Assembly: GCA_015491905.1 (NCBI GenBank) | Contig: WGGC01000058.1 | Coordinates: 1-63,875 of the forward strand | Direction: 5' to 3' | DNA from: Bacteroidales bacterium | GTDB taxonomy: Bacteria > Bacteroidota > Bacteroidia > Bacteroidales > F082 | DNA: 63,875 bases | Shown here: piece by piece, positions 120 through 60,479 of the stretch | Numbering within the stretch: position 1 is the stretch's first letter | Layout: each line of letters starts with the position of its first letter | The notes under the pieces: model-generated | What the model was told of the DNA's origin: nothing | Database searches by the model: none | Seen by the model: only the letters and a program-made list of their open reading frames with translations | Program-made: the position numbers and the translations under genes

Positions 120-253
120 GTGTTTATAATTTTATATTTCATTGGTCACATGGAACTTACCATGATTGAATAATTATAGCCCTTGCCCTGTGAAATAGCA
201 AAAATTTCACTTAGTGTTAATGTGATTTAATAATTCTTCAATCATAGTAGTTT
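120..253 (-). repeat. Hairpin leader repeat, copy A
   Basis: Read on the minus strand, this spacer holds a long imperfect stem (arms around ATGATTGAAGAATTATT and AATAATTATTCAATCATGG). Inside it sit GTGAAATTTTTGC and TATTTCACAGGG. A conserved tail follows, GGTAAGTTCCATGTG then ATGAAATATAAAATTATAAA, ending CAC immediately before the ATG of the SRPBCC gene. The same tail and stem recur at 6378-6507, 17704-17829 and twice at 60289-60479. The remaining spacer to 496 (about 240 bases) is very AT-rich, and I see no gene or clear signal in it. Confidence 0.85.
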
Positions 254-496
254 TATATTATAAAAATATAAAAAAATCAATAAGCCTATTCCATATTGCT
301 GCTTGCAATATTAACATTATTTTTCCTTAAAATAAAAAGCCTTTATCATCAATATTAAAAACTATATTGTAGCAAGTTTTTTTATCATTATTATGCAAAA
401 AATTTTTATGAAAAAATTCTTTTTTGTTTAGTCATAACATGATAAATATACTACCTAAAAAGTCGTATTTTTACACCGGAATAAATAAAACAAGAT

Positions 497-1114
497 TTGA
501 ACGAATATTCTTCAAAATTACTTGAACGAGCTGTTCAAGAATTATCTCATCTTCCCGGAATTGGCAAAAGAACAGCTCTGAGACTTGCACTTTATCTTTT
601 GCATGAGGATCCGCCTGTAACACAAAAACTTGCTGATGCTTTGGTTAAAATGCGTAATGAAATACATTTCTGTCGCCGGTGTTACAACATTTCCGATACT
701 GATATTTGTGAAATATGCAGCAATCCTAAAAGAGATGAAAACACACTTTGCGTCGTTGCAGATACCCGTGACGTATTAGCTGTTGAAAATACAGCTCAAT
801 TTAATGGTTTATATCATGTTCTTGGTGGAATTATTAATCCCATGGAAGGTGTTGGACCTGGCGATTTACATATCACACCCCTTATAGAACGTATTAACAA
901 AGAAGATGTTAAAGAAATTATCCTGGCATTGCCTGCTACTGTCGAAGGGGATACAACAGGTTTCTATCTTTTTAAATTACTAAGTTCCTTTGATATTACC
1001 ATAACTACTATTGCACGTGGCGTAGCAGTAGGTAATGAACTCGAATATACCGATGAAGTAACATTGGGTCGATCCATATTAAATCGATTACCATTCGATT
1101 ATAAAAAATCATAA
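497..1114 (+). CDS. recR: Recombination protein RecR
   Basis: RecR, 205 aa, full family length. It acts with RecO/RecF to load RecA on gapped DNA. A helix-hairpin-helix is at residues 16-32 (LSHLPGIGKRTALRLAL), a four-cysteine zinc finger at about 58-75 (C-x2-C ... C-x2-C), and a Toprim domain from about 83 (VVADTRDVLAVE ... GGIINPMEGVGP). The start is a TTG at 497, supported by the family-typical opening MNEYSSKLLE; no ATG precedes the HhH. It converges with the gene at 1115 with no spacer between the two stop codons. Confidence 0.95.
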   Translation: MNEYSSKLLERAVQELSHLPGIGKRTALRLALYLLHEDPPVTQKLADALVKMRNEIHFCRRCYNISDTDICEICSNPKRDENTLCVVADTRDVLAVENTAQFNGLYHVLGGIINPMEGVGPGDLHITPLIERINKEDVKEIILALPATVEGDTTGFYLFKLLSSFDITITTIARGVAVGNELEYTDEVTLGRSILNRLPFDYKKS

Positions 1115-2254
1115 TTACCGGACAGACTTTTTATAAAAAACCTTTCTGTCAGCAAGGCCATTCAAAAAGAAGGAAACTATTTTCTCATTATCGCCTAACT
1201 CTTCAGGTAAATACAATCCATTATCATTTAGTAAACCGGAAAGCAACAACCGTACACCCATAGATGCAGTATAGGCTGTAGTCCTGGCCATACTGTGTGT
1301 CTTGGTTTTCTCATCATATTCATCATAAAGATTATAAGTTATTGTCATCGGCTTATCGTTTTTATTTCCTTTAGCGGTTATGCGCATTACAGTAAAATCA
1401 TGTTCTTCTTCTTCTAACTTCCATTGGTTAAACAACATCGCACTGGTGACTTCTAACGGAATAAAAGTTTTTTGTCCTGATAATACAGGTTCTGTATCAA
1501 AAAAACCACTATCGGCAAGTAGCTTTATTTTTGAAGCATAACCCGGATAACGCAGGGTTTTTTCACACATGTTACGTGCTTTCATGGTAAATAATAACGA
1601 CCGTAACCCGTCGCTGTTAAAAGCTTCCAAAGCTCCTGCTTCTTCAAAATATACCTGCTCAACATCAGTAAGTGGCGGCACAGTAACAATTTTGCCGTTT
1701 ACTACCATCCGCGCCGGACGTGTGTATTCTTCAATAACATCAACAGGAGAAAAAACAGCTTTATATTCCCATGGCTGTTGCCTGATTTTTGGTAAACCAC
1801 CTACCAATATTTCCAGCGTGTCTATTTCATCCATCTCCCTTGCAGCATCACCTGATAACAAATTACTCATTCCCGGAGCTACTCCCAAATCAGAAATTAC
1901 CCTTACCCCTTTCTCCATTGCCAATGGCTTTAGCAATAGAACGTTTTCAGGAAAAAAAGCAAAGTCAATACAGTCTTTCCCGGCATTAATAACTGCTTTT
2001 AACGTGTTAAAACCCATAAATCCCGGAACAGCATTAACCACTATATCAAAAGGTTTAACCAATTTATTTATAATTCTTTCATCAGAAAGGTCTGCTTGTA
2101 CAGTATCAATAGAAAAAGTGTGTAACCCATTAAAAACATTGATGTTTTTATCTGCTACCGTAATCCGTAATTCTTTATCTCCTGCTAAATCAACAGCTAA
2201 TGGTTTTCCTATCAAACCACCTCCAAGCACTAATACTTTAATGGTCTTTTCCAT
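1115..2254 (-). CDS. Saccharopine dehydrogenase family protein
   Basis: A 379-aa NAD(P)-dependent dehydrogenase of the saccharopine dehydrogenase family. An N-terminal Rossmann fold begins VLVLGGGLIGKPLAVDLA, with an acidic residue (D) closing the second strand at about 35. The family C-terminal catalytic domain follows (VISDLGVAPGMSNLLSG ... EYTRPARMV). In known members this is the glutamate-forming step linking saccharopine and alpha-aminoadipate semialdehyde, but the family also includes homospermidine- and carboxynorspermidine-type enzymes, so the substrate is not fixed. An ALDH7-like enzyme that would use the semialdehyde is at 52132, far away. ATG start; transcription converges with recR. 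Confidence 0.8.
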   Translation of the reverse strand: MEKTIKVLVLGGGLIGKPLAVDLAGDKELRITVADKNINVFNGLHTFSIDTVQADLSDERIINKLVKPFDIVVNAVPGFMGFNTLKAVINAGKDCIDFAFFPENVLLLKPLAMEKGVRVISDLGVAPGMSNLLSGDAAREMDEIDTLEILVGGLPKIRQQPWEYKAVFSPVDVIEEYTRPARMVVNGKIVTVPPLTDVEQVYFEEAGALEAFNSDGLRSLLFTMKARNMCEKTLRYPGYASKIKLLADSGFFDTEPVLSGQKTFIPLEVTSAMLFNQWKLEEEEHDFTVMRITAKGNKNDKPMTITYNLYDEYDEKTKTHSMARTTAYTASMGVRLLLSGLLNDNGLYLPEELGDNEKIVSFFLNGLADRKVFYKKSVR

Positions 2255-2298
2255 ATTTTTATTGTTTTATGTGTTTTTATTAAAGACATTTCAACTAT

Positions 2299-2566
2299 TA
2301 ACCTGAGTTCGACATAAGACTTTAGCTACAGAAAGCCAACAGGGAGTGAGATTTGGAGAAAAAAAACAGAAGTAATAGCGGGCTATTTCAAGGTTTTTTT
2401 TCTTCAAAGATGGCTTTTTGTTGGCTTTCCCTAAAGGGTCATGATAATTTTTCCCTTTTACTTCCGCAAAATCCCTTGAATTATCCCGATAGTCCTGCGA
2501 AATTTTGCGCCGTCCAGGAAAAAATTATCTATGTCTGAAGCAAAGTCTTATGTCGAACTCAGGTTA
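2299..2566. mobile_element. MITE-like element, 268 bp, perfect 25-bp terminal inverted repeats
   Basis: Positions 2299-2323 (starting TAACCTGAGTTCGACATAAG) and 2542-2566 are exact inverted copies of each other over 25 bases. The ends carry TA, compatible with a TA target duplication. The interior has no credible gene; a 61-codon reading frame at 2353-2538 resembles no family I know. A second internal inversion pairs AGAAAGCCAAC (about 2331) with GTTGGCTTTCCC (about 2421). The right end falls one base before the stop codon of the EamA gene (stop at 2567-2569), so the insertion spared the coding sequence. It could be a non-autonomous element or the two ends of a deleted insertion sequence. Confidence 0.8.
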
Positions 2567-3475
2567 TTAATCATCATCTGTAACAATTATCTTTTCTTTT
2601 TTCCTGCTGCCTGTTTCTGATAAAAAGACACCTGCAATAACAACTGCCATTCCAATTATTTTCTGATTGGTAAATGTTTCTCCTAAAATAAAAAAAGCAA
2701 ATAAACTTGTAAATACAGGTATAATATTAGTGTATAAACTGGATTTAATAACTCCCAAACGGTTAACAATATAAGCAAACAAAACATAAGCCACCGAAGA
2801 TGCAAATATTCCTAACATTAATAAAGAACTTATCGTGTCAACACCAGGTATGATAGCACTGAAACGTTTCCATTCAAACACTAAAAATAATGGTAAAAAA
2901 TAAACCGAACCGATTAAATTCTGCCATGTGATAATTGTAAGTGGTTTATATTTAAATGTTAGTTTTTTTAACACAATGGAATAAAATACAGCTGAAAATA
3001 CTGCTCCAAACAAAAATAAAATCCCCCATGGATTTGCAGTTATCTCAAAATCCTTGTTAACAATTATTATTAACAAACCCGTAAACGATAATATTAAACC
3101 GGCAAGGTTTACAGGCTGCAGACGTTCTTTGAAAAAATAATAAGCTGCAAATGGCGCAAATAACGGTATTGTAGCTACAATAATAGAACTTAATGATGCC
3201 GGCACTAAACTTAAACCGAAGTTCTCTCCCAAAAAATATAAAAAAGGATTTAAAAGTGCACTTACAGCAAACAATCCAAAATCTTTCTTATCAATCTTTT
3301 CAACTAATCCCGAAACATAAATATATAGAAACAGAAAAATAGTAGATATTACCAATCGAAGGAAAATAGTTGTCAATGGTGAATAGGTCTCAAAAACAAT
3401 TTTCGACCAGATATACGAAAAACCCCAGAAAAACATCGAAGTAAGCGCTGCAATATGTATCCAGACTTTCTTCAT
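2567..3475 (-). CDS. EamA family (DMT superfamily) transporter
   Basis: A 302-aa membrane protein with about ten hydrophobic segments arranged as two EamA repeats (about 5-140 and 150-290). It has the usual repeat features: FWGFSYIWSK near the N-terminus, P-L-F-A-P-F at the end of the first repeat, and ..NIIPVFTSLFAFFILGETF.. in the second. The lysine-rich tail EKIIVTDDD is cytosolic. Drug/metabolite transporters export amino acids, metabolites or nucleotide sugars; substrate unknown. The ATG at 3475 lies four bases after the stop of the upstream DUF3108 gene, so the two are probably co-transcribed. Confidence 0.9.
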   Translation of the reverse strand: MKKVWIHIAALTSMFFWGFSYIWSKIVFETYSPLTTIFLRLVISTIFLFLYIYVSGLVEKIDKKDFGLFAVSALLNPFLYFLGENFGLSLVPASLSSIIVATIPLFAPFAAYYFFKERLQPVNLAGLILSFTGLLIIIVNKDFEITANPWGILFLFGAVFSAVFYSIVLKKLTFKYKPLTIITWQNLIGSVYFLPLFLVFEWKRFSAIIPGVDTISSLLMLGIFASSVAYVLFAYIVNRLGVIKSSLYTNIIPVFTSLFAFFILGETFTNQKIIGMAVVIAGVFLSETGSRKKEKIIVTDDD

Positions 3476-3479
3476 ATAT

Positions 3480-5148: not shown

Positions 5149-5161
5149 AAAATAAAATATA

Positions 5162-6361: not shown

Positions 6362-6377
6362 TGGATTACATAAAGCT

Positions 6378-6507
6378 CTTACCATAATTAAATAATCATT
6401 AAATTACATTAACCCTGTGAAATTTTTGCTATTTCACAGGGCAAGGGAAATGATTATTTAATTATGGTAAGTTCCATGTGGCCTATGAAATATAAAATTA
6501 TAAACAC
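6378..6507 (+). repeat. Hairpin leader repeat, copy B (best-formed copy)
   Basis: Positions 6378-6400 and 6449-6471 are perfect 23-base inverted repeats (arm begins CTTACCATAATTAAATAATC). Nested inside is a second perfect 11-bp stem, CCCTGTGAAAT (6413-6423) / ATTTCACAGGG (6431-6441), with the loop TTTTGCT. The conserved tail runs from GTTCCATGTG to TATAAACAC and stops exactly at the ATG of nfo (6508). A transcript starting upstream would carry a strong double hairpin before the nfo start. There is no T-tract after the stem, so an intrinsic terminator is unlikely. Confidence 0.92.
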
Positions 6508-7353
6508 ATGAAATTTATTGGAGCTCATGTTAGTGCTGCCGGAGGCGTGGAAAATGCACCGGTAAATGCTTTCAACATTGGAGCAAAAGCTTTCGCTTTA
6601 TTTACTAAAAACCAACGCCAATGGCTTGCAAGTCCTCTTACCCCTAAAAGTATTGATTTGTTTAAACAAAACTGTGCTAAATATGGGTACAAACCAAATC
6701 AAATACTCCCTCACGACAGCTATTTAATTAACCTTGGACACCCTGAAAAATATGCACTGGAAAAATCACGCTCCGCTTTTCTGGATGAAATAAAACGATG
6801 TGAACAGCTGGGATTGGACAGGCTAAACTTTCATCCCGGTTCTTATTTAAAAAAAATTACTGAAGACGTGTGCCTGCAAAATATTTCCGATTCTATTAAT
6901 ATGGTATTGGATAAAACTACCGGTGTTACAGCTGTAATAGAAAACACTGCCGGACAAGGTACAAATCTTGGATATCGTTTTGAACATCTTGCAGCTATTA
7001 TTGATAAAGTAAATGACAAATCCCGAATAGGAGTTTGTATAGACACTTGTCACGCATTTACTTCAGGTTATGATTTAAGAACACCTGAAAACTTTAAAAA
7101 GACCTTTGATAATTTTGAAAAGATTGTTGGCTTTCATTATTTAAAGGGGATGCACCTCAATGATTCCAAAAAAGAGCTGGGCTCACGTGTTGATCGCCAT
7201 GCAAGTATTGGAAAGGGATTTATAGGCATGGAGGCCTTTAATCAAATTATAAACGACTCACGTTTTGATAACATACCATTAATTCTGGAAACCCCCGATC
7301 CAAATATCTGGAAAGAAGAAATTAAAACCTTGTATGGTTTAATACATAGCTAA
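6508..7353 (+). CDS. nfo: Deoxyribonuclease IV (AP endonuclease Nfo)
   Basis: Endonuclease IV, 281 aa, normal length. It cleaves DNA 5' of abasic sites in base-excision repair and uses three metal ions. A TIM barrel opens with the family-typical [17 protein letters not shown]. Metal-ligand motifs are visible: NFHPGS (His), VIENTAGQG (Glu), [16 protein letters not shown] (Asp/His), [22 protein letters not shown] (His/Asp/His) and LILETPDP (Glu). The native start is intact although the hairpin repeat ends right at it. Confidence 0.97.
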
Positions 7354-17319: not shown

Positions 17320-17703
17320 TGGTTTATAATTTAATTATTAATATCAATTTCACCCTAACAACTTCAAATTTAATGAAAATTATCTCTATTTATATCATCT
17401 TTTAAATAATTATACCTTTAAAAAGATTTTTATCATTTCATTAAATAAATTTTTCTCAAAAAGAGATATAGATTCTAAAAATTAGAAAGATTTAAATTAT
17501 TATTTCTCAACAATTATTTTCTTATTTAACTGATTACATACAAGTTACAACACTTATTAGGAAATGGCACAATTTATGTTTTTTGCCCTTCAAACATTTA
17601 AAATCTTTTATCACAAGTTTGTTTAGTTCAGATGATACAAAAAAATAATAATGACAAAATATAATTTTCTAAATAACTATAAAGAAAACAAACCATGAAG
17701 CGT

Positions 17704-17829
17704 CCATGATTGAATAATTATTAAAATACATTCACCCTGTGAAATTTTTGCTATTTCACAGGGCAAAGGAAATGATTATTCAATTATGATAAGTTCCATG
17801 AAACTAATGAAATATAAAATTATAAACAC
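17704..17829 (+). repeat. Hairpin leader repeat, copy C
   Basis: Outer arms CATGATTGAATAATTATT and AATGATTATTCAATTATGA (two mismatches) enclose a perfect inner stem, CCCTGTGAAAT (17735-17745) / ATTTCACAGGG (17753-17763). The tail GTTCCATG...AATGAAATATAAAATTATAA ends CAC directly at the ATG of the LruC lipoprotein (17830). The left flank reads ATGAAGCGTCC, closely matching ATGAAACGTCC beside copy D, which suggests the element includes this left-end sequence. Confidence 0.9.
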
Positions 17830-19629
17830 ATGAAAAAATACCTATTGATACCACTGGTTCTAATTCTTTTTGGACTTTGGTCTTGTATGAAACCAAATGT
17901 GGATGATATTCTTAAAAAAGAAAGTAGTCATTTGGTAAAAAGCATGAATGATTTAATCATAAATCCTAATTTTAACTGGAAAACTACTAAAACAATTAAT
18001 GTTAACGTTAATTTACCATCAGAAATAAATGTTTTACCATTATCAATTTTAAGTAATGATGGAAAAAGAGTTTACTTTACAGGATATCCGGAAAATGGGA
18101 ATAACATTTTAAAAGTTAAAATTACAGTTCCCACTTATGAAAAGAACCTCAAGATCGCTTTTGCCAAACAATCAAATATCTCAACAAAATTAGTACCCAT
18201 TCAAGGTAATAATTTAAATTATACAGTAACAAACAACAATAAAAGCGCTTTAATGGTTTGTGATATGACAGGATTGACAACATATTCACAAGGAGGCTGG
18301 CATGCACCGGCAAACGGACAAAATGCCGGAGTGTTGCGTGATACTCACTTTTCAGATGTTTTCCCGTCAGGACTTGTAATTGGAGACCCTAATAATTATA
18401 CGATGACATTTACCAGTGCCCAGGCAATTGCCGATTTCTTACCAGGAACGGGGAACTCACAGGTTTTAACACAAAATGTTACAAATCCTCCCGATGCAAG
18501 TTTGACAGGCAACTGGGCAGGACAAATTGCAGCAGCGATTATGAATGTCGAATTTAATGATAAAGGATACCTGGGTTCCGGGCCAAACAAATTAAAAGAT
18601 TTGGTATTTTTTGCCGGTCCTTTTCAAGGTATGTCTGTCACTAATTTCCTGAATTTAGCTAATACAGCCATTGGAGGTGGTGGTTTGGGAGGCTTTACCA
18701 TTAGTGAAATTGCCTATGCTGCTGAGCAAATAAATATAAATTTTGAGAATGGTGATCAGAATTTTTTTACATGTACTACAAATAGCGGAGGAAATGGAAC
18801 AGGGCCTACCGAAGTACATTATACCGGAACACTTGCTTATGAAGATCTGTGGCCGTGGAAAGGAGATTACGATTTTAATGACTTAGTAATAAATTATGAC
18901 TTTGATATTTTTAAAAATGTTAATGAAGAAATAAGACATATTACAGCAACTTTTGTAATATATGCTTTTGGAGCTTCTTTTTACAATGGTTTTGGCTTTG
19001 TACTTCCGGCAGTTTCAAACGATGCTATAATTAACGTTACAGGATCACATTTAAAACCTTCATCAATCTTTCATTTACAACCCAATGGCCTTGAGGCCGG
19101 TCAACCTAATGCCACAATAATTGTTTATGATGATGCATTTGATTTAATGCAACATCCCGGAGTGGGAATAGGAGTAAATACAGACCCTTCGGCACCATAT
19201 GTAACTCCTGATACCATTGTAATAGAAATGAGTTTTATAGATAACGGCACCGTTCCTGCTGGTGGGCCTGTAACCTTTAATCAGTTAGATATTGGAAATT
19301 TTAATCCCTTTTTAGTAGTTAATCAAGAACGAGGAGTAGAAGTTCATCTTCCGGGATATCCACCTACAGCACTTGCTAACCAAACTCTTATAGGCACAGG
19401 TCAGGATGACGGAAACTCAGGTACAGTTCATTATTACCGGACAGTAAACAATTTACCTTGGGCTATCAATATTCCGGAAGTTTTTAAATATCCAATTGAA
19501 AAACAAGATATAACCGGAGTTTATAATCATTTTGCCGAATGGGCAGAAAGTAATGGCCAATTATATCCTGACTGGTACCAGGATAATCCCGGATATCGTA
19601 ATTCAAATTTAATTTATCAACAACCATAA
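17830..19629 (+). CDS. LruC domain-containing lipoprotein
   Basis: A 599-aa surface or periplasmic lipoprotein with lipobox LFGLWSC (Cys19). The C-terminal LruC/DUF4842-type domain (about 330-595) contains the hallmark LAYEDLWPWKGDYDFNDLVI, an acidic DYDFND-like, probably Ca2+-binding loop, followed by beta-rich GFGFVLP and IEMSFID blocks. The middle part (about 120-300) is glycine-rich and unfamiliar. Function of LruC proteins is unknown; in Leptospira the name-giving protein is a surface-associated antigen. It opens a run of three lipoprotein genes and has the hairpin repeat as its leader. Confidence 0.85.
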   Translation: MKKYLLIPLVLILFGLWSCMKPNVDDILKKESSHLVKSMNDLIINPNFNWKTTKTINVNVNLPSEINVLPLSILSNDGKRVYFTGYPENGNNILKVKITVPTYEKNLKIAFAKQSNISTKLVPIQGNNLNYTVTNNNKSALMVCDMTGLTTYSQGGWHAPANGQNAGVLRDTHFSDVFPSGLVIGDPNNYTMTFTSAQAIADFLPGTGNSQVLTQNVTNPPDASLTGNWAGQIAAAIMNVEFNDKGYLGSGPNKLKDLVFFAGPFQGMSVTNFLNLANTAIGGGGLGGFTISEIAYAAEQININFENGDQNFFTCTTNSGGNGTGPTEVHYTGTLAYEDLWPWKGDYDFNDLVINYDFDIFKNVNEEIRHITATFVIYAFGASFYNGFGFVLPAVSNDAIINVTGSHLKPSSIFHLQPNGLEAGQPNATIIVYDDAFDLMQHPGVGIGVNTDPSAPYVTPDTIVIEMSFIDNGTVPAGGPVTFNQLDIGNFNPFLVVNQERGVEVHLPGYPPTALANQTLIGTGQDDGNSGTVHYYRTVNNLPWAINIPEVFKYPIEKQDITGVYNHFAEWAESNGQLYPDWYQDNPGYRNSNLIYQQP

Positions 19630-19639: not shown

Positions 19640-21100
19640 GTGAAATATTTTTATCACATATTTACTGTATTTGTCTTGACTACTTTAGTCATACTGAATG
19701 GCTGCACAAAATCACAACTTCAAACAAATGATTTTAAACAGGATGTTTCCTTTAGTAGTAAAAAGATATTAAACAAACCAAATAGTATAAATTTATTAAA
19801 ATCTGTTCCTCTTTCTGTTGACTATGCAATAATTGGCATCGATGATAATATTTACAAAATTCCTACTTATCAAATTAATGGAACTATTTATACAACCTCT
19901 ATAAAATTAAATCCGGGAAACTTTACTCTGTCAAAATTTATATTAATGAATAATGGAGGATCAGAAAGCGATTCTACTGACGATATTCCTGTATATGCTC
20001 TTCCCCAATCGGGATCAGAATATGCTGCTTTTGTAAACCATCCTGCAGGATTCCATTTTAATGTAAATTCTCTGGAAAAAAAAGAAGTTTCTCTGGAAGT
20101 ATTATCCTTCCAACCGGATAATTATCAAAAATTTGGTTTTAACTTTAATATTTTACCAAATACAATTATTCGTAATCAATTTTTCAAAGGTATTTTTATT
20201 CCGGTAGATTATAATTTATATACAGGTTCTCTATATCAATCTCAAACAAATGGATTACAACCTGATATGCCGGCTATTTTCCGTATTGATGTATATCGCA
20301 ATGGTAATTTTGTTAAATCATACAGTAACGAAGAAATTCCGGAAAATGAATCCTTAAAAGTGAGTTATCCCGATTCAAAACAAAACCCTGATAGTTTTCG
20401 TTTCGATTTATTCCTATATGCAAAATCAGGAAATAGTTTTGAATACCGGTTTATCCATTCCTGGAAATTCTCAGATGATGAATTACTACATCATGGCAAC
20501 AATGGAATTGTGGATTTTTCAATAGGTGATGCACAACAACAGGTTGATTATAGTTTTGGGCCATATATTAATTTGCCATTAAATTGTATGCTAACTGTTG
20601 ACCCCGGTTATGCACCGGGAAGTCGGGGTTCTTATTTCGATGGTCAAACTCAGAATATCGCATCAGGGTATCATTTAACTAATAATATTTATCGATTTTG
20701 GTGTGGAACCGATACCGTAGCAATAAATATGGGTTATTCTTACTCAATGGATGTCTTCAGTTCTCTTTCTCCCGAATCCCTACCGGCTTATACTCGAAAT
20801 TCAACACAATGGAACGAAATTAACTGGCTTTTTAACAATTTAAATAACTATCCTTTTTACGATTGGGATATTCTACAAGGAGCTGTATGGATGATTTTAA
20901 ACAACTGGAATGGAACAGGACACAGTAATGTTTCTGATGCTAATTCCATTGTTATCAGGATGGCAAATGATGCACGCAACCATTCTGACTTTATTCCCGG
21001 CTTTGGACAAAAAGCAGCAATTATTTTTATTCCTAAAAATACTCATCATGAAGAACAAAGCCCTAAAGTACAAGTGGTTTTCACTTTGTTAGAAATTTAA
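19640..21100 (+). CDS. Lipoprotein with putative C-terminal thioester (TED-like) domain, paralogue 1
   Basis: A 486-aa lipoprotein (lipobox ILNGC, Cys22), GTG start at 19640, ten bases after the LruC stop. The N-terminal beta-rich region (about 60-300) is shared with the next gene (KFILMNNGG, YAAFVNHPAG, NGLQPDMPAIFRIDVYRNG, SFRFDLFLYA). The C-terminal domain (about 315-480) has FWCGTDTVAINMG with Cys355 and WDILQGAVWMILNNWNG with Gln413. A Cys after an aromatic residue plus a ΦQxxΦW motif is the signature I know from internal Cys-Gln thioester domains of Gram-positive adhesins. The assignment is by motif only. Confidence 0.7.
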   Translation: MKYFYHIFTVFVLTTLVILNGCTKSQLQTNDFKQDVSFSSKKILNKPNSINLLKSVPLSVDYAIIGIDDNIYKIPTYQINGTIYTTSIKLNPGNFTLSKFILMNNGGSESDSTDDIPVYALPQSGSEYAAFVNHPAGFHFNVNSLEKKEVSLEVLSFQPDNYQKFGFNFNILPNTIIRNQFFKGIFIPVDYNLYTGSLYQSQTNGLQPDMPAIFRIDVYRNGNFVKSYSNEEIPENESLKVSYPDSKQNPDSFRFDLFLYAKSGNSFEYRFIHSWKFSDDELLHHGNNGIVDFSIGDAQQQVDYSFGPYINLPLNCMLTVDPGYAPGSRGSYFDGQTQNIASGYHLTNNIYRFWCGTDTVAINMGYSYSMDVFSSLSPESLPAYTRNSTQWNEINWLFNNLNNYPFYDWDILQGAVWMILNNWNGTGHSNVSDANSIVIRMANDARNHSDFIPGFGQKAAIIFIPKNTHHEEQSPKVQVVFTLLEI

Positions 21101-21310
21101 CTCAAACCTTATTTCTTTAAATATAAATAAATAATACATTAAATTCTCTTTTTAGGTTTTTATTCTTTAATTAAGAAAATAAACAATAAATATACCACAT
21201 AAAAAATACGTTATTTATCTAACAATTAACTCTTTAACAATAATGGCAAAATAATTGTAATACCACATAATAAAAAACACAAATCAAATTTATCTAAAAG
21301 CTATCAAAAA

Positions 21311-22804
21311 ATGAAAAAAATTAAATTACTCAAATTATTTACACTCTCTGCAATTGCTGTAATGCTTATTGCAAGTTGTAACAAGGCTCCCTCGCCTCTA
21401 AACAAGGATGACAACACCCCTCAAGAAGTTACCTTTAGCAGTCCTCAGGTTAGCAAAGGTAAAGCAGCATCTGCCAACACCAAAAGTACTTCTGCTAACA
21501 ATGAAAACTTAAAAGCCAGTTATGCAAGTATCACAATGGATGGAACAGTTTATACACCAAAAGTTTACTACCTAAATGGTGTAGCATATACCCAGGCTAT
21601 TAAGCTTATGCCGGGATCGTATACTATTACCCAATTTATTCTAATGAATGATAATCAAACACCCAATGACATGAGTGATGATATAATTGTAAGTGCGGCT
21701 CCGGAGGCAGGTTCCCCTTACGCTGCTTTTGTAAATCATCCATTGGATTATGTTATGAGTGTAACAGCTTTTCATAAAAATGAAATAAATATTGAAGTTT
21801 TGGAATTTTTAGCTCAGGAATATTCAGCTTTTGGTTTTAACTGGTTTAGTATGTCTCAAACAACTGTCCGTGAACAGCTGTTTTTTGGTGATATAAGCGT
21901 TAAACATCCCTCTGATTATACAGGTTCATTATATGAACAGCAAACAAATGGGCTACAAGTAGATATGCCTGCAATATTTAGAATAGATGTATATCGTAAC
22001 GATGTTTTCCTTATTTCTTATGATAATGAAAGTTATCTGGGTGAAGGTGATGTTCTGCATGTCGCTTATCCCGATGCCGCAACCACTACAGAGCATTTTC
22101 GTTTTGACTTATATATTTATGTAAAAACAGGTAACACATTCGGTTATAAAAAATTCCATTCATGGACTTTTGATGATGACCAAAAAATTTCTGCCGGTAG
22201 TGATGGAGTAGTTGATTTTGTGTTAGGAAACGCAAACTCTTCTCAACCTGACCTTTTACTGCCTCCATATCAAAATTTACCAGAGACATGTACATATAAA
22301 ATCGTAGGATCATATGGACCGGGCTCACAGGGAGCTTATGTTGATGCTAAGTTAACAGGAATAGGCAGTGGTTATGACATAAGCAATGGAACTTATGCTT
22401 CCTGGTGTGCCGACAACGATGTATCAATAAATGTAGGTCATAATTATGATATGGACGTTTACAGTTCATTATACCCCGATCAGTTACCAGCTTTTACAGC
22501 CTATGCCGACAGATGGGCGAGGGTAAACTGGCTTTTTAACCATTTAGATAATTATCCCGGTCATACCTGGGGTGAAGTTCAGGGTGCTATTTGGATAATT
22601 ATGAACAACTGGAATGGCCAGGCACAAGGTAATGTTCCTGCCGCTGACGCTCTGACACATCAAATGGCTGACGACTCTCAAAGCCATACTGATTTTACAC
22701 CACTACCTGGAGGTTGGGCAGCTGTAATTTTTGTTCCTCACGGTACCGATCCTAATCAAGGAACTCCGGATATTCAAACAATGTTTGTTCAGGTAGACCC
22801 CTAA
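21311..22804 (+). CDS. Lipoprotein with putative C-terminal thioester (TED-like) domain, paralogue 2
   Basis: A 497-aa paralogue of the preceding protein, lipobox LIASC (Cys23), then a Ser/Asn/Lys-rich spacer (about 30-70). The same body motifs recur (QFILMNDNQ, SPYAAFVNHP, NGLQVDMPAIFRIDVYRND, HFRFDLYIYV). In the C-terminal domain, Cys366 lies in ASWCADNDVSINVG and Gln424 in WGEVQGAIWIIMNNW. Between them is the shared DVYSSLYPDQLPAF ... NWLFNHLDNYPG stretch. Both candidate thioester residues are conserved in the two copies although flanking positions have diverged, suggesting selection on them. A 210-base AT-rich gap separates the paralogues. Confidence 0.7.
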   Translation: MKKIKLLKLFTLSAIAVMLIASCNKAPSPLNKDDNTPQEVTFSSPQVSKGKAASANTKSTSANNENLKASYASITMDGTVYTPKVYYLNGVAYTQAIKLMPGSYTITQFILMNDNQTPNDMSDDIIVSAAPEAGSPYAAFVNHPLDYVMSVTAFHKNEINIEVLEFLAQEYSAFGFNWFSMSQTTVREQLFFGDISVKHPSDYTGSLYEQQTNGLQVDMPAIFRIDVYRNDVFLISYDNESYLGEGDVLHVAYPDAATTTEHFRFDLYIYVKTGNTFGYKKFHSWTFDDDQKISAGSDGVVDFVLGNANSSQPDLLLPPYQNLPETCTYKIVGSYGPGSQGAYVDAKLTGIGSGYDISNGTYASWCADNDVSINVGHNYDMDVYSSLYPDQLPAFTAYADRWARVNWLFNHLDNYPGHTWGEVQGAIWIIMNNWNGQAQGNVPAADALTHQMADDSQSHTDFTPLPGGWAAVIFVPHGTDPNQGTPDIQTMFVQVDP

Positions 22805-44836: not shown

Positions 44837-44914
44837 ATGATTTAGCCACATAAGTAACTTCAAAAAGTAATCCGATTTATTTTATAAATATAAATTTCAC
44901 TAAACCAGATAATT

Positions 44915-46354
44915 TTAATGATGGAATATCAAAACATTCTGCAGCCAGTAGGTTACAATACCGGCAATATAACCTACAAATGCAATCCATGATATTTTTT
45001 TCATATACCAAATAAAATCTATTTTCTCTATAGCCATAGCAACCACTCCGGCGGCAGAACCAATTATAAGAATACTTCCACCTGTTCCGGCTGCATAAGC
45101 CAGCAATTCCCAAAATGCTCCATTTTGCATAAAATGCTGCATAAAAGCGGGCTCAGCAGAAGCTTGTACCATAGCATGGGTCATTGTAGGATACATTCCC
45201 ATTACGGCTGCAACAATAGGGACATTATCTACTATAGAAGAAAGAAGTCCTATGGCTGCATTTATAAAATATATATTGTGAAGATGCTTATCTAAAAACT
45301 GTGCTGTAATTTGTAAATGGCCTGCAGATTCCAGGGCACCTACGGCAGATAAAATTCCCAGATAAAAGAATATTGTAGGAATGTCAACTTTTTTTAAGAT
45401 GTTCACAACAGAATATTGATTTCTGACCACAGCAGGACTTTTCAAATGAATAATTTCTACTGTTATCCATATAATACTTAAACTAAACAGCATTCCCATA
45501 TAAGGAGGGAGATCTGTAATCTCCTTAAATACAGGAACAAATATCAATCCTCCAATACCTAATATTAACATTAACATTCTAATTTTAGGATTTGTATGTT
45601 TAGTTTCATTTTCTATTTCCGGTTTAGTTACCTTACCTTTAATATACAGTGAAACAACGGCTAATGGAACCAAAAGGCTTACCACACTAGGTAAGAAAAC
45701 CATTCCCATAATATCTATAGCTGTTATTTGATTTCCAATCCAAAGCATTATAGTTGTCACATCGCCTATAGGAGTAAAAGCCCCGCCGGCATTTGCAGCT
45801 ATAATTACAATACTTGCAAAAAACCAACGTGTTTTTTTATCATCAATAAGTTTGTTAAGCAGGGTAACCATAACAATGGTAGTAGTCATATTATCCAGAA
45901 TCCCGGATAAAAAGAAAGTAATAATAGCAAGAATCCAAAGCAATTTAATTTTACTGGTAGTATTAATTTTATCGGTTATGACTCTAAAACCTTCATGTTG
46001 ATCTACTGTTTCCACAATAGTCATGGCTCCCAGCAGGAAGAATAATATTTCTGAAAGATCTCCCAGATGATCAATAATTTCATTATTGATAATAAAATTT
46101 TTCATTTCATCAATAAGGGAGGCTTTGGGGTTAACCTTTAAAAAGTCTGTTAAATCTGAACTATGAACAAAATGATTCCATGCAGGGCTAAATCCAAGGT
46201 TAAGAATTTCAGGAACTCCAAAAATATATACAACCCACATTAATACGCCCAATAAAATAGCTATTGCAGCCTTATCTACTTTTAAAGGGTGTTCCAAAGC
46301 AATGGCGATATATCCCAAAACAAAAACAATCAACATTAAAATAAAAGGAGTCAT
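44915..46354 (-). CDS. nhaD: NhaD-type Na+/H+ antiporter, paralogue 1
   Basis: A 479-aa ion-transporter-superfamily protein with about 12 TM helices. NhaD hallmarks: ILFFLLGAMTIVETVDQHEGF, LDNMTTTIVMVTLLNKLIDDKK, ANAGGAFTPIGDVTTIMLWIG, SSIVDNVPIVAAVMGMYP and AGTGGSILIIGSAAGVVAM. It exchanges Na+ (or Li+) for protons at the inner membrane. The next gene (46626) is a close paralogue in tandem on the same strand, separated by about 270 bases with its own terminator. Confidence 0.93.
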   Translation of the reverse strand: MTPFILMLIVFVLGYIAIALEHPLKVDKAAIAILLGVLMWVVYIFGVPEILNLGFSPAWNHFVHSSDLTDFLKVNPKASLIDEMKNFIINNEIIDHLGDLSEILFFLLGAMTIVETVDQHEGFRVITDKINTTSKIKLLWILAIITFFLSGILDNMTTTIVMVTLLNKLIDDKKTRWFFASIVIIAANAGGAFTPIGDVTTIMLWIGNQITAIDIMGMVFLPSVVSLLVPLAVVSLYIKGKVTKPEIENETKHTNPKIRMLMLILGIGGLIFVPVFKEITDLPPYMGMLFSLSIIWITVEIIHLKSPAVVRNQYSVVNILKKVDIPTIFFYLGILSAVGALESAGHLQITAQFLDKHLHNIYFINAAIGLLSSIVDNVPIVAAVMGMYPTMTHAMVQASAEPAFMQHFMQNGAFWELLAYAAGTGGSILIIGSAAGVVAMAIEKIDFIWYMKKISWIAFVGYIAGIVTYWLQNVLIFHH

Positions 46355-46488
46355 GACATAAGATTTAATTAAACATTAAACAAAATCAATCGTGCAAATT
46401 TATACTAACCATTAAATAAATGCTCTATGTTTCAGAAATTTAAACACCATATAAATTATACACCTATTTAAATATCAATCAACAAGTT

Positions 46489-46525
46489 AAAAAGGCCACT
46501 TCTCAGAATGAGAAATGGCCTTTTT
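46489..46525 (-). terminator. Terminator between the two nhaD genes
   Basis: Stem GGCCACTTCTCA / TGAGAAATGGCC with loop GAA, flanked by A5 on the left and T5 on the right, so it can stop transcription in either direction. It follows the stop of the 46626-48071 gene. Confidence 0.8.
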
Positions 46526-46625
46526 AATTTTATAAAAACAAACCGGTTATAAACAGTTATCAAAACATTAAAATCTATTTTTAATACTTGTAAACTTGCT
46601 GGTTATGAAATTAAATATTTCATAT

Positions 46626-48071
46626 TTACATATGAAATAATAATAATTCCTGCAGCCAGTAAATAAAGATACCGCCAAAATAACCAATTAAAGCCAGCCA
46701 GCTAATTTTTTTCATATACCATATAAAGTCTATTTTTTCCAAAGCCATAGCAGCAACACCGGCAGCGGAACCAATAATCAGGATACTTCCACCTGTACCT
46801 GCAGCATAAGCTAACAATTCCCAGAAAGCACCATCCTGAACAAAATGATGCATATATTCAGGAGATTGTGAGGCGGCAGCCATTGCAGGAGTCATAATTT
46901 TATACATTCCCATTGCCCCGGCTGTTAACGGAACATTATCGACTATGGATGATAAAACTCCAATAGCTGCATTAATACCATAAATACTATGAACGTTTTT
47001 ATCAAGCCAATGGCTTGCCAAAGCCAGGTGGCCGGCAGATTGCAGAGCAGCTACAGCCGATAAAATACCCAGGAAGAAAAAGATAGTAGGTATATCAACT
47101 TTTTTCAGAACCCCAACGACAGATAATTTTCTTTTATCTTCTCCGGATTTATTTTTATGAATCAGCTCAGTAGTAATCCAAATTACACCAAGGCCAAATA
47201 ACATTCCCATAAATGGAGGCAGGTGAGTTAAAGTTTTAAAAACCGGAACAAAAATCAAAGCACCCACGCCCAAATATAACATCAATTTGCGCTCGAAGGG
47301 AGATGTAAACACCTGTGAATCTTCCGGATTTTCCTCTGGTCGTTCAAAAGTACCTTTTAAGTAAATTGAAACAATAGCCAATGGAAACAACATATTAAAA
47401 AGAGAAGGCACAAAAACCATTGCAATAATATTTCCGGCTGTCACTTGTCCACCAATCCACAGCATAATAGTTGTTACATCACCTATAGGTGAAAACGCTC
47501 CTCCTGCATTTGCAGCAATAACAACCATACTGGCAAAAAACCAACGTGTTTTCTTATCGTCAACTAATTTATTCAGCAGTGTAACAATTACAATAGTAGT
47601 TGTTAGGTTATCTAAGATTGCAGACATAAAGAAAGTAAGAATACTTAATATCCAAAGTAATTTAACTTTACTGGTAGTAGTAATTTTATCTGTTATTAAT
47701 TTAAAACCCTGATGCTGGTCAATAGTTTCCACAATAGTCATAGCACCTAACAGAAAGAAAAGGATTTCACTGATTTCACCTAAATGTTCCACTATTTGAT
47801 TATCGACGATGAAATACCTGATTTGTTCAACAAGAGAAGCATGAGGATGAATTTCTTTAAAATCAAGAAATGCAGTACTATGCAAAAATTCTTTCCAGGC
47901 TTCGCTAAAATTTAAAGAAAGGATACTTGAGCCACCAATAATAAAAACAGCCCATACTAATACACCAAGTATAATAGCTGAGGCAGCTTTATCTATTTTT
48001 ATAGAATGCTCCAAAGCAATGGCGACATATCCAAGGATAAACACAACTAACATTAAAGTAAAACCAAACAT
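46626..48071 (-). CDS. nhaD: NhaD-type Na+/H+ antiporter, paralogue 2
   Basis: 481 aa, colinear with the neighbouring NhaD over its whole length: ILFFLLGAMTIVETIDQHQGF, LDNLTTTIVIVTLLNKLVDDKK, ANAGGAFSPIGDVTTIMLWIG, SSIVDNVPLTAGAMGMYK, AGTGGSILIIGSAAGVAAM. The loop between about 225 and 245 (FERPEENPEDSQVFTSPFERK) differs most, hinting at different regulation or ion preference. The pair probably arose by tandem duplication followed by divergence. Confidence 0.93.
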   Translation of the reverse strand: MFGFTLMLVVFILGYVAIALEHSIKIDKAASAIILGVLVWAVFIIGGSSILSLNFSEAWKEFLHSTAFLDFKEIHPHASLVEQIRYFIVDNQIVEHLGEISEILFFLLGAMTIVETIDQHQGFKLITDKITTTSKVKLLWILSILTFFMSAILDNLTTTIVIVTLLNKLVDDKKTRWFFASMVVIAANAGGAFSPIGDVTTIMLWIGGQVTAGNIIAMVFVPSLFNMLFPLAIVSIYLKGTFERPEENPEDSQVFTSPFERKLMLYLGVGALIFVPVFKTLTHLPPFMGMLFGLGVIWITTELIHKNKSGEDKRKLSVVGVLKKVDIPTIFFFLGILSAVAALQSAGHLALASHWLDKNVHSIYGINAAIGVLSSIVDNVPLTAGAMGMYKIMTPAMAAASQSPEYMHHFVQDGAFWELLAYAAGTGGSILIIGSAAGVAAMALEKIDFIWYMKKISWLALIGYFGGIFIYWLQELLLFHM

Positions 48072-56264: not shown

Positions 56265-56276
56265 AATGTCCAAATT

Positions 56277-56314: not shown

Positions 56315-56332
56315 AAAGCTGTTATTAATTTA

Positions 56333-56875
56333 TTATTCTTCAGGTAAGTAGTTATTATTTATACCCATATCAACAGGGGTCTCGTCTTCTTTTTTATAAC
56401 GGCCATTACCGCCACCATTGCCATTATGTCCATGATATCCATTTCCATTGTTCATCGACCTTTGTAAAGAAGAAATCAAAGCTCCAATCATCTTAGTCAT
56501 TTCCATTAACTGGGTTCTTGACTCATTTTCATAAGTCTCGCTTATTAAGTTTAGTCCATAAGATAATGTTGTATACACCATGCATTGCCTAATAGAACTT
56601 TTAGCCATACGTAAATAATAAATAAATTGAGTTTTATTCCTTGCAGATCCTTCAGCAATATATAAAGCAATATTTCTGGCAGAATCGTTAAAACGCACTG
56701 CCAGCTCAGACTTATCAGTATCCGGGAATAAACTTGTAGCATCGTGTAGCCAACTAATGTAATCCAATGATTTGTGATAAATTCTTAAATCCTCAAATCG
56801 AAAAAATGTACCGTTACGTTCTTGTTTCTCAGCGCCTTCCATTTTTTCCGTTTTTTGGTTTTCGTTGTACATCAT
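56333..56875 (-). CDS. Four-helix-bundle protein (S23 / 23S rRNA intervening-sequence-type family)
   Basis: 180 aa. FEDLRIYHKSLDYISWLHDAT, FPDTDKSELAVRFNDSARNIALYIAEGSARN and FIYYLRMAKSSIRQCMVYTT are the canonical helices of the S23 four-helix-bundle family, which was first met in intervening sequences of 23S rRNA genes but mostly occurs alone in chromosomes with unknown function. The tail is unusual: an Asn/Gly/His-rich stretch (NNGNGYHGHNGNGGGNG, about 142-158) then a charged end. It sits inside the serC-serA-DUF1015 run. Confidence 0.88.
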   Translation of the reverse strand: MMYNENQKTEKMEGAEKQERNGTFFRFEDLRIYHKSLDYISWLHDATSLFPDTDKSELAVRFNDSARNIALYIAEGSARNKTQFIYYLRMAKSSIRQCMVYTTLSYGLNLISETYENESRTQLMEMTKMIGALISSLQRSMNNGNGYHGHNGNGGGNGRYKKEDETPVDMGINNNYLPEE

Positions 56876-56975
56876 GATTAATAATTTTAATAAAGTTAAA
56901 TTTAATCACCTTTAGGTGATAGTTAGTAAAATGGTTATTTATAAATATTTAAGATATTAAGTAATTCAAAGTAAA

Positions 56976-57896
56976 TTAATTAACTTTAAAGGTATCAACA
57001 CCTTTTTCAAGAAAGTCAATTATTTGGTTAGCAGCAGCAATACCTGCATTGATATTTGCTTCTGCTGTTTGAGCTCCCATTTTTTTTGGGGTAAAGAAAC
57101 ATCTTTCAGGAAATTTATCCTCAAAAAGAGATTTCTTATCCGGAGCAATATCTGAAATATAATGGAAAGATTCATTTTCATTCATTAATTTCAAAAGTCC
57201 TTCTTCATCAATAATTTCTTTTCTGGCAGTATTAATTAAGGTAGCACCTTCTTTCATACCAGAAAGTAAATCGTAATTTATAGATTTAATAGTTTGTGGT
57301 GTTGCCGGAATATGCAGACTTACAAAATCGCATGTACCATACATTTCTTTAACAGAATCAACGGCTTTCACTCCATTTTTTTCAATAATATCGTTAGAAA
57401 TAAACGGGTCGAAAGCGAAAATTTCCATTCCGAAACCCTTTCCTATACGTGCAACCTGCTTTCCCACATGTCCAAATGCGTGGATTCCCAGTTTTTTCCC
57501 TTTTAATTCAGTCCCGGGTGTACCATTAAAATGGTTTCTCACCTGATAAACCAACATTCCAAATATTAATTCGGCAACGGCATTGGAATTTTGTCCGGGA
57601 GTATTCATTACCACAATATTTCTTTTTGAAGCTGCTTCCAGGTCAACATTATCATATCCGGCACCGGCTCTGACAACTATTTTCAAATTTGGAGCTGCTG
57701 CCATTACGGTGTCATCAATTTTATCACTTCTTATTATAAGCGCATCCACATCAGCCACAGCCTTTAGAAGTTCATCTTTTGAAGAGTATTTTTCCAGAAT
57801 ATTTAGTTCATATCCTGCACCTTTTAATATATTACTAATATTTTCAACGGCTACTTTAGCAAATGGTTTTACTGTAGCAATAAGAACCTTAGTCAT
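56976..57896 (-). CDS. serA: D-3-phosphoglycerate dehydrogenase (short form)
   Basis: 306 aa, first step of serine synthesis. D-2-hydroxyacid dehydrogenase fold: the substrate-side residues RAGAGYDNVDLEAASKRNI, the Rossmann motif KLGIHAFGHVGKQVARIGKG with a downstream Asp, and LINTARKEIIDEEGL. The usual GxGxxG is changed to G-x-H-x-x-G (GIHAFGHVG). No C-terminal ACT domain, so no ACT-mediated serine feedback is expected. serC lies 49 bases upstream. Confidence 0.9.
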   Translation of the reverse strand: MTKVLIATVKPFAKVAVENISNILKGAGYELNILEKYSSKDELLKAVADVDALIIRSDKIDDTVMAAAPNLKIVVRAGAGYDNVDLEAASKRNIVVMNTPGQNSNAVAELIFGMLVYQVRNHFNGTPGTELKGKKLGIHAFGHVGKQVARIGKGFGMEIFAFDPFISNDIIEKNGVKAVDSVKEMYGTCDFVSLHIPATPQTIKSINYDLLSGMKEGATLINTARKEIIDEEGLLKLMNENESFHYISDIAPDKKSLFEDKFPERCFFTPKKMGAQTAEANINAGIAAANQIIDFLEKGVDTFKVN

Positions 57897-57945
57897 GGTT
57901 AGTTAATTTTTTAATTATTAAAATATAATTTAACATCATCAGAAA

Positions 57946-59013
57946 TTATTTTTTTTCAAATTCCTGCATACAAGATATTAGAGCTTCAACACTATCCAAA
58001 GGTAATGCATTATACAAGGATGCTCTGAAACCACCAACAGAACGATGTCCTTTTATTCCCACCATTCCTTTTTCTGTGGCAAAGTCGAGAAATGCTTTTT
58101 CCTTATCTTTATGATCTTCATCCATAACAAAACAAACATTCATTAGTGACCGGTCATCAGTATTTTCCACCGTGCAGCGGAATAACGAATTTCTTTCAAT
58201 TTCATTATAAAGCATTTCTGCTTTTTTCTGATTAATTTTATGCATTTCTTCAACACCGCCCATATCTTTTAGCCATTTCAAGGTTTGAAGTGCTGAAAAA
58301 ACAGGCAAAACAGGAGGTGTATTAAACATACTTCCTTTGTCGATATGAGTTTGATAATTCAACATGGTAGGTATTTTGCGGTCTACTTTTCCCAAAATAT
58401 CATTTTTAATAATAACAAAAGTAACACCTGCGGGAGCCAGATTCTTTTGAGCTCCACCATAAATCAGTGCATATTTTGAAACATCAACAGGACGGCTGAA
58501 AATATCAGAAGACATATCAGCCACTAAAGGAACAGGTGAATCAAAGTCCTCTTTTATTTCTGTACCGTAAATTGTATTATTTGTAGTAATATGGAAATAA
58601 TCTACATCGTCAGGAATGGAATATCCTTTAGGGATATAAGAAAAGTTTTTATCTTCTGAACTTGCTGTAATTTCCATTTCACCAAACAATGTAGCCTCTT
58701 TAATAGCTTTTTTAGCCCATGCTCCTGTATTCAGATAAGCAGCTTTTTTATTAAGTAAATTATATGGTATCATAGCAAATTGGGTGCTGGCACCTCCACC
58801 AAGAAAAAGTACTGAATATCCCTCAGGGATATGTAGTAATTCTTTAAAAAGTTGTTGGGCTTCATCCATTACAGCCACAAACTCCTTACTGCGATGTGAT
58901 ATTGACATAACAGAAATTCCGGTTCCGGCAAAATCCTTAACTGCTTTTGCTGTTTCCTCTACAGTAAATTCCGGTAAAATAGATGGTCCGGCATAGAAAT
59001 TATGTTTCTTCAT
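57946..59013 (-). CDS. serC: Phosphoserine aminotransferase
   Basis: 355 aa, PLP enzyme making phosphoserine from 3-phosphohydroxypyruvate. It begins [58 protein letters not shown] and [17 protein letters not shown] (Schiff-base Lys) follow, with [21 protein letters not shown] near the end. A TTG at 59046 would add 11 residues; the ATG at 59013 gives the family-typical start. First gene of the serine cluster. The spacer upstream (59014-59286) is AT-rich with no gene. Confidence 0.95.
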
Positions 59014-59286
59014 TTGTTTAAAATTTTTTGTTTCTAAGAAATACAAAAAAATTTTGGCACTTTCCGAAACGGCCTTGAAAAAACAATTTCTTCCCTTTAT
59101 AAATAAAGGTTTTTTTCTACAAGTTCGTTTCTTTCTTTAGTCATTTCAGATAACCTAAATTATGGTGCAAATATAAATAAAGGAATGATTTGAATAAAGA
59201 AAAATTAAACTTAGAATTGTTCTATTTAATATCTGAATACAAATATTTTAAATGATTCTTTAAAAAAAACTCATGTAAAAATCATT

Positions 59287-60288
59287 TTACTTTACTAAAA
59301 AAAACACCAAAGAAGGATAGAAAGCATCCCAAGCCCATTTTTTCGCAGAAAATGAAACAGGGTTATGTAATCTTTTACCTTTGTCAGGGCCATTAACGAT
59401 GCGACCAAATATATTAAACTGATTTCCCCGCTGATCTTCCATTATTAAAGGAAATGAGTTTTTGACAGGTCTGAATGTATCGTTAACAGTCTCTGAAGTC
59501 AAAAGAAACGATGTGATAAATTCTTGATTTTTATTTCCGATGATAATCAAGTCCATATTTCCAAAATGAGTTTTGTATATGGAATTCTTATCGGTAAACT
59601 GATCATATTTCATTAACATTACCTGTTGTTTCAAAGCCGGAGTTTCTTTTTCCACAATACCATACCAATGTATAGCATCATCTTTAACAGTAACTTTTTT
59701 AGTTAATTTAGTCATATTATCTTTTAGTACTTTTCCATTGAAGGATGCTTTTTCAATAGTTGAAAATCGTGTTTTAACCATTGAAAATGTAACCGGTTGT
59801 TCCCCAATAAGGGGGCCATGAACACATTTTAACAGCATTTGAGACCAATAACTATCAGTAGTCCTGTCATAGGGCATCAGGTTTTCATTATACAACATAC
59901 CTGAAACTCCAAATTCTGTTACATGTCCGTTAATGTTTCTATTCCAAATAATTGCACTTGCAGTACGAGGGCAATATGTCACTGAATAAAAGAAATTATT
60001 TTTTACAGCATTAACAATTTCATGAGTTTCTAATACCGAAAGCGGAAAAATATACACTGTTGTGTCTATTTCATACATATAAACCCACTCTGAATCTTGA
60101 AGAATAGTTTTTTTAAGATCGGTAAACACAGGGCTGTCAATAGATGGTATATTATCCTTTTCAGCATTAGGATTAAGTATTTTATCTTTCGGTATAAGCC
60201 AAATATCATTATCTTTCGTTGTCAGTTTTGATTTATCTGTACACCCGGCCATCAACAAAAGTAAGTATACTAACAGTAAACGTTTCAT
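59287..60288 (-). CDS. DUF3179 domain-containing lipoprotein
   Basis: A 333-aa lipoprotein (lipobox LMAGC, Cys16). DUF3179 blocks: IYIFPLSVLETHEIVN-like (YIFPLSVLETHEIV), SVTYCPRTASAIIW with the conserved Cys, VTEFGVSGMLYNENLMPYDR and TDSYWSQMLLKCVHGPL. The family is uncharacterised, with an active-site-like Cys/Asp pattern. ATG at 60288, immediately preceded by two tandem copies of the hairpin leader repeat. Confidence 0.88.
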   Translation of the reverse strand: MKRLLLVYLLLLMAGCTDKSKLTTKDNDIWLIPKDKILNPNAEKDNIPSIDSPVFTDLKKTILQDSEWVYMYEIDTTVYIFPLSVLETHEIVNAVKNNFFYSVTYCPRTASAIIWNRNINGHVTEFGVSGMLYNENLMPYDRTTDSYWSQMLLKCVHGPLIGEQPVTFSMVKTRFSTIEKASFNGKVLKDNMTKLTKKVTVKDDAIHWYGIVEKETPALKQQVMLMKYDQFTDKNSIYKTHFGNMDLIIIGNKNQEFITSFLLTSETVNDTFRPVKNSFPLIMEDQRGNQFNIFGRIVNGPDKGKRLHNPVSFSAKKWAWDAFYPSLVFFLVK

Positions 60289-60380
60289 GTGATAATAATT
60301 TTATATTTCATTGGCCACATGGAACTTACCAGAACTTGATAATCATTCCCCTGTATATTTTAATGATTTCAATTCTGGAC
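60289..60380 (-). repeat. Hairpin leader repeat, copy D1 (start-proximal)
   Basis: On the minus strand: CCAGAATTGAAATCATT ... AATGATTATCAAGTTCTGG stem, the tail GGTAAGTTCCATGTGGCC then AATGAAATATAAAATTATTA, ending TCAC at the DUF3179 ATG. The inner CCCTGTGAAAT stem of copies A-C is replaced by a shorter ATACAGGGG segment. It is one of two tandem units of 99 bases (60282-60380 and 60381-60479). Confidence 0.9.
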
Positions 60381-60479
60381 GTTTCATGTGATAATAATTT
60401 TATATTTCATTGGCCACATGGAACTTACCAGACCTTGATAATCATTTCCCTGCATATTTTAATGATTTCAATTCTGGAC
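60381..60479 (-). repeat. Hairpin leader repeat, copy D2 (tandem duplicate)
   Basis: A second 99-base unit identical to 60282-60380 except for three substitutions (A/C, C/T, T/C on the plus strand). It includes the first bases of the gene, so it carries its own ATGAAACG. From that ATG a 14-codon frame (MKRPELKSLKYAGK) would be read towards the true start. The left flank continues with one more GTGAAACGTCC-like end at 60474-60485. Confidence 0.92.

Follow-up and report, generated by a model that had tools for sequence, protein, structure and literature searches.

The window analysed here, the whole stretch of 63,875 nucleotides (nt) from contig WGGC01000058.1 of a Bacteroidales bacterium (F082; GCA_015491905.1), carries a dispersed hairpin element in five copies at four loci, all of them present as originally predicted. 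Copy A (115..256, minus strand) has a decayed left target, ATAAA (256-252), and a right ATGAA (119-115) that starts a gene cut off by the contig end. Copy B (6370..6512, plus strand) runs from a decayed left ATAAA (6370-6374) through a long hairpin, the guide TTCCATGTG and the tail to a right ATGAA (6508-6512), which starts an nfo-like gene. In copy C (17695..17834, plus strand), a left ATGAA (17695-17699), the hairpin and the tail precede the right ATGAA (17830-17834) at the start of a gene for a DUF4842 protein. The last two copies, both recovered in the genome scan with a covariance model, form a tandem pair on the minus strand: the gene-proximal unit D1 (60284..60387) lies between a left ATGAA (60387-60383) and the right ATGAA (60288-60284) that starts a DUF3179 gene, and the distal unit D2 (60383..60486) has GTGAA as its left target. 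The gene behind copy B (6508..7353, plus strand) belongs to the AP endonuclease family (nfo; PF01261, E 5.6e-66), the one behind D1 (59287..60288, minus strand) encodes a DUF3179 protein (PF11376, E 8.1e-43), and the LruC lipoprotein behind copy C (17830..19629, plus strand) corresponds to DUF4842 (PF16130, E 5.3e-53). The SRPBCC gene named behind copy A was not confirmed; it is a 39-residue fragment at the contig end that matched no Pfam family.

A covariance model of 55 units from outside the window, including one from another contig of the same genome (L038), matched four window copies with 74.9, 55.2, 52.6 and 39.3 bits (E 8e-13 to 2e-5); D2 scored 67.6 bits with the covariance model in the genome scan and has no separate row in the window search. 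For copies A, B and C, the model aligns an inner stretch (115-210, 6417-6512 and 17739-17834, respectively) and not the entire longer hairpin. The window copies exceed the spans first reported for them because the unit has ATGAA, or a decayed form of it, on both flanks: it begins directly after one ATGAA and stops directly before a second, which is usually the start codon of a gene. Unit length is most often 88-91 nt (70 of 103 measured units) and about 135 nt in many copies of the window's genome, where the aligned copies share a common plan of ATGAA, AC(G/A).., a long hairpin, GTTCCAT(G/C)TG, an A/T-rich tail ATAAAATTATAAACA(C/G), and ATGAA. A coding role for the unit was rejected, as its lengths follow no multiple-of-three rule (remainder 1 in 44 units, 2 in 32 and 0 in 27) and the frames differ among genomes (judged by eye); the ATGA stop-start mini-frame seen in the window's genome is not a conserved reading frame.

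The element is frequent in its own genome and patchily distributed in the phylum. Searching the genome (3.02 Mb, 204 contigs) with copy B gave 40 strong same-strand matches, some of them shortened, with the tandem pair at 60284-60486 in addition, and a metagenome-assembled genome (G477) holds 58 near-full-length matches, many in tandem. The proposed search of the genome and its relatives with a covariance model was run with the 55 diverse units under strict filters and found the element in 30 of the 296 phylum genomes scanned, the window's own among them. The tail pattern alone occurs in 24 of 149 genomes of the order (56 matches in the own genome, 37 in G134 and 20 in G177), with a reversed-pattern control giving one match each in two genomes. 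A scan of GTDB contigs for the core CACAGG..ATGATTAT..GTTCCATSTGRC detected at least 111 stretches. The 80 stretches with titles among the core matches listed are all Bacteroidota or Balneolales by name, and these listed matches include the named isolates Labilibaculum, Natronoflexus and Parapedobacter. The exact core pattern was found in no viral contig. Rfam gave no match in the window at gathering scores and none for the five loci at E <= 1, and no description of the element was found in the open-licence PMC literature.

Not every trace of the element is a complete unit. For 41 of the 90 exact or one-mismatch tail sites in the own genome (the reversed tail pattern gave 2 matches as a control), no left-arm match lies within 170 nt. 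Seven to eight of the 41 directly precede a full copy, at least four (L028, L031, L033 and L117) keep other hairpin parts, and the others look like lone tails, probably decayed copies. Two contig ends of the own genome (L007 and L015) agree in their upstream flank and almost completely in the gene start that follows the element, through either duplication or strain mixture. Matches of 55-63 nt to the model in G239, G458 and L473 (3368-3422) suggest a variant with a smaller interior, and some elements in L171-L189 (G177) have the further palindromes CCCGAGGCCTCGGG and CTGAGCCCAGTCGAAGTA nested inside their loops.

We compared the right ends of the copies with gene starts, using a criterion of at least 60 amino acids and simple frame calling in place of annotation. 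The original prediction that each copy ends flush with a start codon holds within the window but not throughout the genome, where the ATG at the end of the hairpin copy opens such a frame, or one that runs off the locus, in 29 of 40 cases. No such frame follows the other 11 (L003, L019, L026, L027, L028, L029, L030, L032, L033, L034 and L037), of which L026 is followed by another copy. The exact tail occurs 53 times in this genome, 42 times at frames; at 7 of the other 11 (L004, L006, L009, L018, L036, L080 and L099) the left end of the next copy follows directly after the ATG. In G134, 4 of 22 exact tails lie away from frames; in G177 the figure is 10 of 20, and four of these have another copy immediately behind them. 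Among the 122 exact-core copies from all loci fetched by then, 110 have a right ATGAA (82 at frames, 12 followed by another copy, 1 at a locus end and 15 elsewhere) and 111 keep a left target, ATGAAA[CT], within 140 nt upstream; most of our counts come from such exact-pattern sampling, so that decayed and non-start copies are under-sampled. Terminal copies lie on a frame start in 82 of 97 cases, compared with 32% of non-coding ATGAA (p ~4e-26), the copies being drawn from all loci and the background from 824 kb of L240-L350 only (208 starts and 433 intergenic non-starts). A genome-wide absence of start-codon preference, named at the outset as a result that would speak against the element's register with genes, did not occur. 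In the tandem arrays of G177 at L171, L172, L179 and L189, the gene-proximal tail is better kept (by eye; the search was keyed on the exact tail); the upstream unit also keeps an exact tail at L173, L177, L184 and L185, and we infer nothing from these arrays on tail preservation.

The genes downstream of the copies are unrelated to one another. Promoters are not the address, because 38 of the 94 copies at frames follow a co-directional frame that ends within 80 nt upstream, that is, they occupy sites within operons. In the left flanks of 68 single copies, A is found in 59, 59 and 66% at positions -13 to -11, compared with 61, 67 and 66% in the 208 control starts, and A at -2 is somewhat raised (63 vs 42%). 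A longer DNA target was rejected, since the left flanks resemble ordinary starts and no clear motif extends past ATGAA. The A-rich signature at -13 to -11 is described for starts of Flavobacterium johnsoniae in PMC6847099, and the tail of the element supplies the new ATG with the same kind of A-rich context as native starts have.

Flanks with ATGAA, an ordinary start context and no further clear DNA motif also fit random insertion at any ATGAA, with selection leaving the harmless sites at start codons and starts not being targeted. Most ATGAA sites (2512 of 3153) are coding and would be harmful if hit. After removal of the unit in silico, 7 of 88 sites lay inside a frame (six of the seven at a gene start) vs 523 of 851 sampled ATGAA, and this avoidance of coding ATGAA could be explained by selection. 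Selection accounts less readily for the excess over other non-coding ATGAA, as starts are a minority of those sites yet receive most terminal copies, and selection would need to have purged most of the other non-coding sites too. We therefore consider purely random insertion a serious candidate that is nevertheless doubtful, and the distribution of copies makes a real preference for translated starts plausible.

Comparison of orthologous loci with and without the element, as had been proposed, provided one clean filled and empty pair. Labilibaculum manganireducens (L300) has the unit at the start of lpxB (Pfam LpxB), and Labilibaculum sp. K2S (L274) has the same locus without it. The two differ by 89 nt exactly at the lpxB start codon, with ATGAA doubled. 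Upstream, the 41 nt next to the site are identical, as are 49 of the last 60; downstream, 284 of 300 bases are identical. We thus directly observed a precise insertion together with its empty counterpart, which, with the enrichment at starts, supports the earlier suggestion of site-specific insertion at ATGAA. The other listed pairs were of less use: the flank of L342/L315 has diverged, the supposedly empty partners still hold the element in at least two cases (L201 and L047), in the six L329 rows element copies are aligned with one another, and the remaining pairs have diverged too far to be of use.

The expectation that the stems keep pairing while their sequences drift was borne out across the phylum by covariation and compensatory changes. 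In the aligned sequences two helices covary, one of which holds the start codon. In the first, P1, AAC.. behind the left ATG pairs with ..GTT ahead of the guide. The inner part of this helix consists of the pairs A-T, C-G, G-C and T-A; roughly half of the units instead have non-standard pairs, mostly tandem G.A, at 2 of the 7 positions of P1. The basal pair is T-A in place of C-G in copies of G368 and G376. The second, P3, is formed by CATSTG with CASATG and includes the start codon. The P3 base preceding the start codon covaries with the guide base (C/G 39, G/C 28), and this variable pair is Watson-Crick in 124 of 135 units. Compensatory cells number 65, compared with a shuffle mean of 23 and 0-18 in a slid alignment. 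Between the P1 arms lie a variable inner hairpin, whose longest unbroken stem has at least 4 bp in 109 of 135 units, and the conserved CACACAGG..ATGATTAT. Terminal inverted repeats are absent from the unit ends: the unit begins AC... and ends ...CAS, and its inverted pairs are internal.

Two partners are open to the guide TTNCAT, ATGAAA on the left and ATGAA on the right, and RNA folding predicts the two pairings to be mutually exclusive, with probabilities of 0.54 for the right AUG and 0.32 for the left. Such rival pairings, together with a start codon inside P3 and a covarying P3 pair, could mark a cis-acting RNA regulator under selection, a translational switch in which the guide masks the old or the new AUG. 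Several observations make this very unlikely. The genes behind the copies are unrelated, Rfam recognises nothing at these loci, and transposition could use identical pairings; the high and patchy copy numbers, the tandem arrays and the orthologous empty site give the family the appearance of a mobile element. As the earlier idea of a mobile 5' leader had it, the element does have the position of a leader ahead of genes; it may possibly also regulate the host gene, as in the earlier suggestion of a translational regulator or thermosensor.

The enzyme that would mobilise the element was sought among Y1 transposases, and no Y1 gene bracketed by element ends was found. The element lies within 1.5 kb of a Y1 gene at 5 of 62 loci at E <= 1 and at 3 of 27 at E < 0.001. 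G000 has two Y1 remnants; apart from it and the two genomes discussed below, the element-bearing genomes tested have at least one Y1 match each. One candidate system is the Bacteroidota group of transposases associated with repetitive extragenic palindromes (REPs), TnpA-REP (RAYT) subclass 2.6, whose genes are said in PMC6006769 to have atypical flanking structures; the element would then be an atypical REP. Like REPs, it is a dispersed hairpin repeat in Bacteroidota, and relatives of a REP-type Y1 protein (from L374, assigned to its subclass by eye) were found in 16 of 30 element-positive genomes vs 62 of 266 others (p = 8e-4, shared ancestry ignored). They are, however, missing from 14 of the 30, including G285, G368 and G322 with at least 12 element matches each, and only 2 of 20 loci of these relatives have an element match at E < 0.001 in flanks of about 1.5 kb. 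The element also differs from REPs in sitting at gene starts, not consistently beside a transposase gene, and no GT[AG]G foot was seen beside the hairpin on inspection of alignment A1; subclass 2.6 itself is without this foot in PMC6006769. We regard movement by this subclass as unlikely. At L236 2426-2518 (G064), the start region of a REP-type transposase gene appears to contain a decayed antisense element, and at L416 571-2025 (G477) an element marks the start of a gene judged by eye to be trpF-like, with a gene for a Y1-family protein next.

A retroelement copied from RNA at mRNA starts would account for a unit that ends at the translation start and for the many 5'-shortened copies that retain the 3' tail. 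Later deletions could equally have shortened these copies, the left end is precise, with ATGAA, in most full copies, and RVT_1 had no match in 7 of 14 element-bearing genomes, including Labilibaculum sp. K2S. This origin is highly improbable.

We conclude that the copies probably belong to a family of very small non-coding mobile elements across Bacteroidota that target the ATGAA of gene start codons. Judging from the sequences, the family is a new one, of tiny mobile elements with an unusual address. The element would insert directly behind the ATGAA of a start codon, oriented into the gene, and its right end would be its own or the duplicated ATGAA; with ATGAA at this end, the gene's start codon would stay intact, and the element would provide the A-rich context ahead of it. 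By analogy, our best guess for the mechanism is a single-strand process like that of IS200 or REPs: the coding strand would be transposed as folded single-stranded DNA, the guide would pair with the two junctions one after the other (ATGAAA on the left, ATGAA on the right), and the enzyme would act in trans. An enzyme of the HUH type (Y1) is a tentative and somewhat unlikely mover. The bias towards start codons may combine harmlessness at the site with some real preference. It is also conceivable, if distinctly improbable, that the element finds genes through the translation start itself: pairing with the start codon would guide insertion, perhaps on mRNA still being synthesised or where the DNA of translated genes lies open, with an enzyme of a new type or host proteins, the guide masking the old AUG while a new one is installed.

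The guide logic proposed here resembles that described for the IS200/IS605 insertion sequences and REPs in PMC6006769. The element resembles IS200/IS605 and their non-autonomous derivatives in its directional insertion next to a short target, in hairpins near the ends, in having no terminal inverted repeats and in the possible pairing of an internal guide with the junctions. Unlike them, it is about 90 nt long, its target is usually a start codon, and one guide would serve both ends; no Y1 gene was found bracketed by its ends and, in G368, none was found at all.

Several results weigh against our explanation of the copies as start-directed mobile elements with a single-strand mechanism. The lpxB site is the single clean empty site among 14 pairs listed from 102 queries. 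Four of the six P3 pairs are invariant, and two of five covariation measures do not exceed the shuffle level (4 vs 3.5 pairs changed on both sides; 12 vs 11.4 further pair types). RNAalifold on alignment A1 detects P3 only, and P1 was for this reason written by hand from the alignment columns. Wobble pairs, counted as a test of the folding strand, are 10 G-T vs 6 A-C, with no clear preference for either strand. Both start codons are predicted to be mostly paired in RNA (unpaired probability 0.19 for the right and 0.28 for the left), which fits poorly with a purely benign leader. On the side of the enzyme, only 6 of 89 Y1 loci have any end motif within about 1.5 kb and none has one on both sides of the gene, the motifs being exact or nearly so, such that diverged ends may escape. 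G368 has no Y1 gene and yet 12 element matches, and G484, with at least two element copies (L242 and L289), has Y1 only as a remnant with three stops.

Other small elements were also compared. Miniature inverted-repeat transposable elements (MITEs) of DDE transposons and the Correia, ERIC and RUP repeats are small, dispersed and hairpin-forming, with doubled target bases. The element shares all of these traits and differs in having no terminal inverted repeats, in being directional and in its 5-base target, mostly at starts. HEARO and IsrB elements insert beside ATGA or GTGA, a similar target; the element is much shorter, has no shared reading frame and, in the window and the five loci, was not matched by Rfam. 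Among further repeats of the window, 44914-48063 and 20822-22645 hold diverged direct repeats (spacing of about 1.7 kb, 70-78% identity) that are probably tandem gene duplications. A 28-nt inverted repeat (2296-2323 and 2542-2569; 96% complementary, 218 nt between the arms) is dissimilar to the element.

With a defined unit of about 90 nt, a filled and empty pair and named isolates, both the enzyme and the recognition of starts become directly testable. If our reading is true, this is a transposable element that prefers the start codon as its address. It could multiply in the coding portion of a compact genome while leaving the genes unbroken, and would rewrite the 5' leaders of dozens of genes at once.

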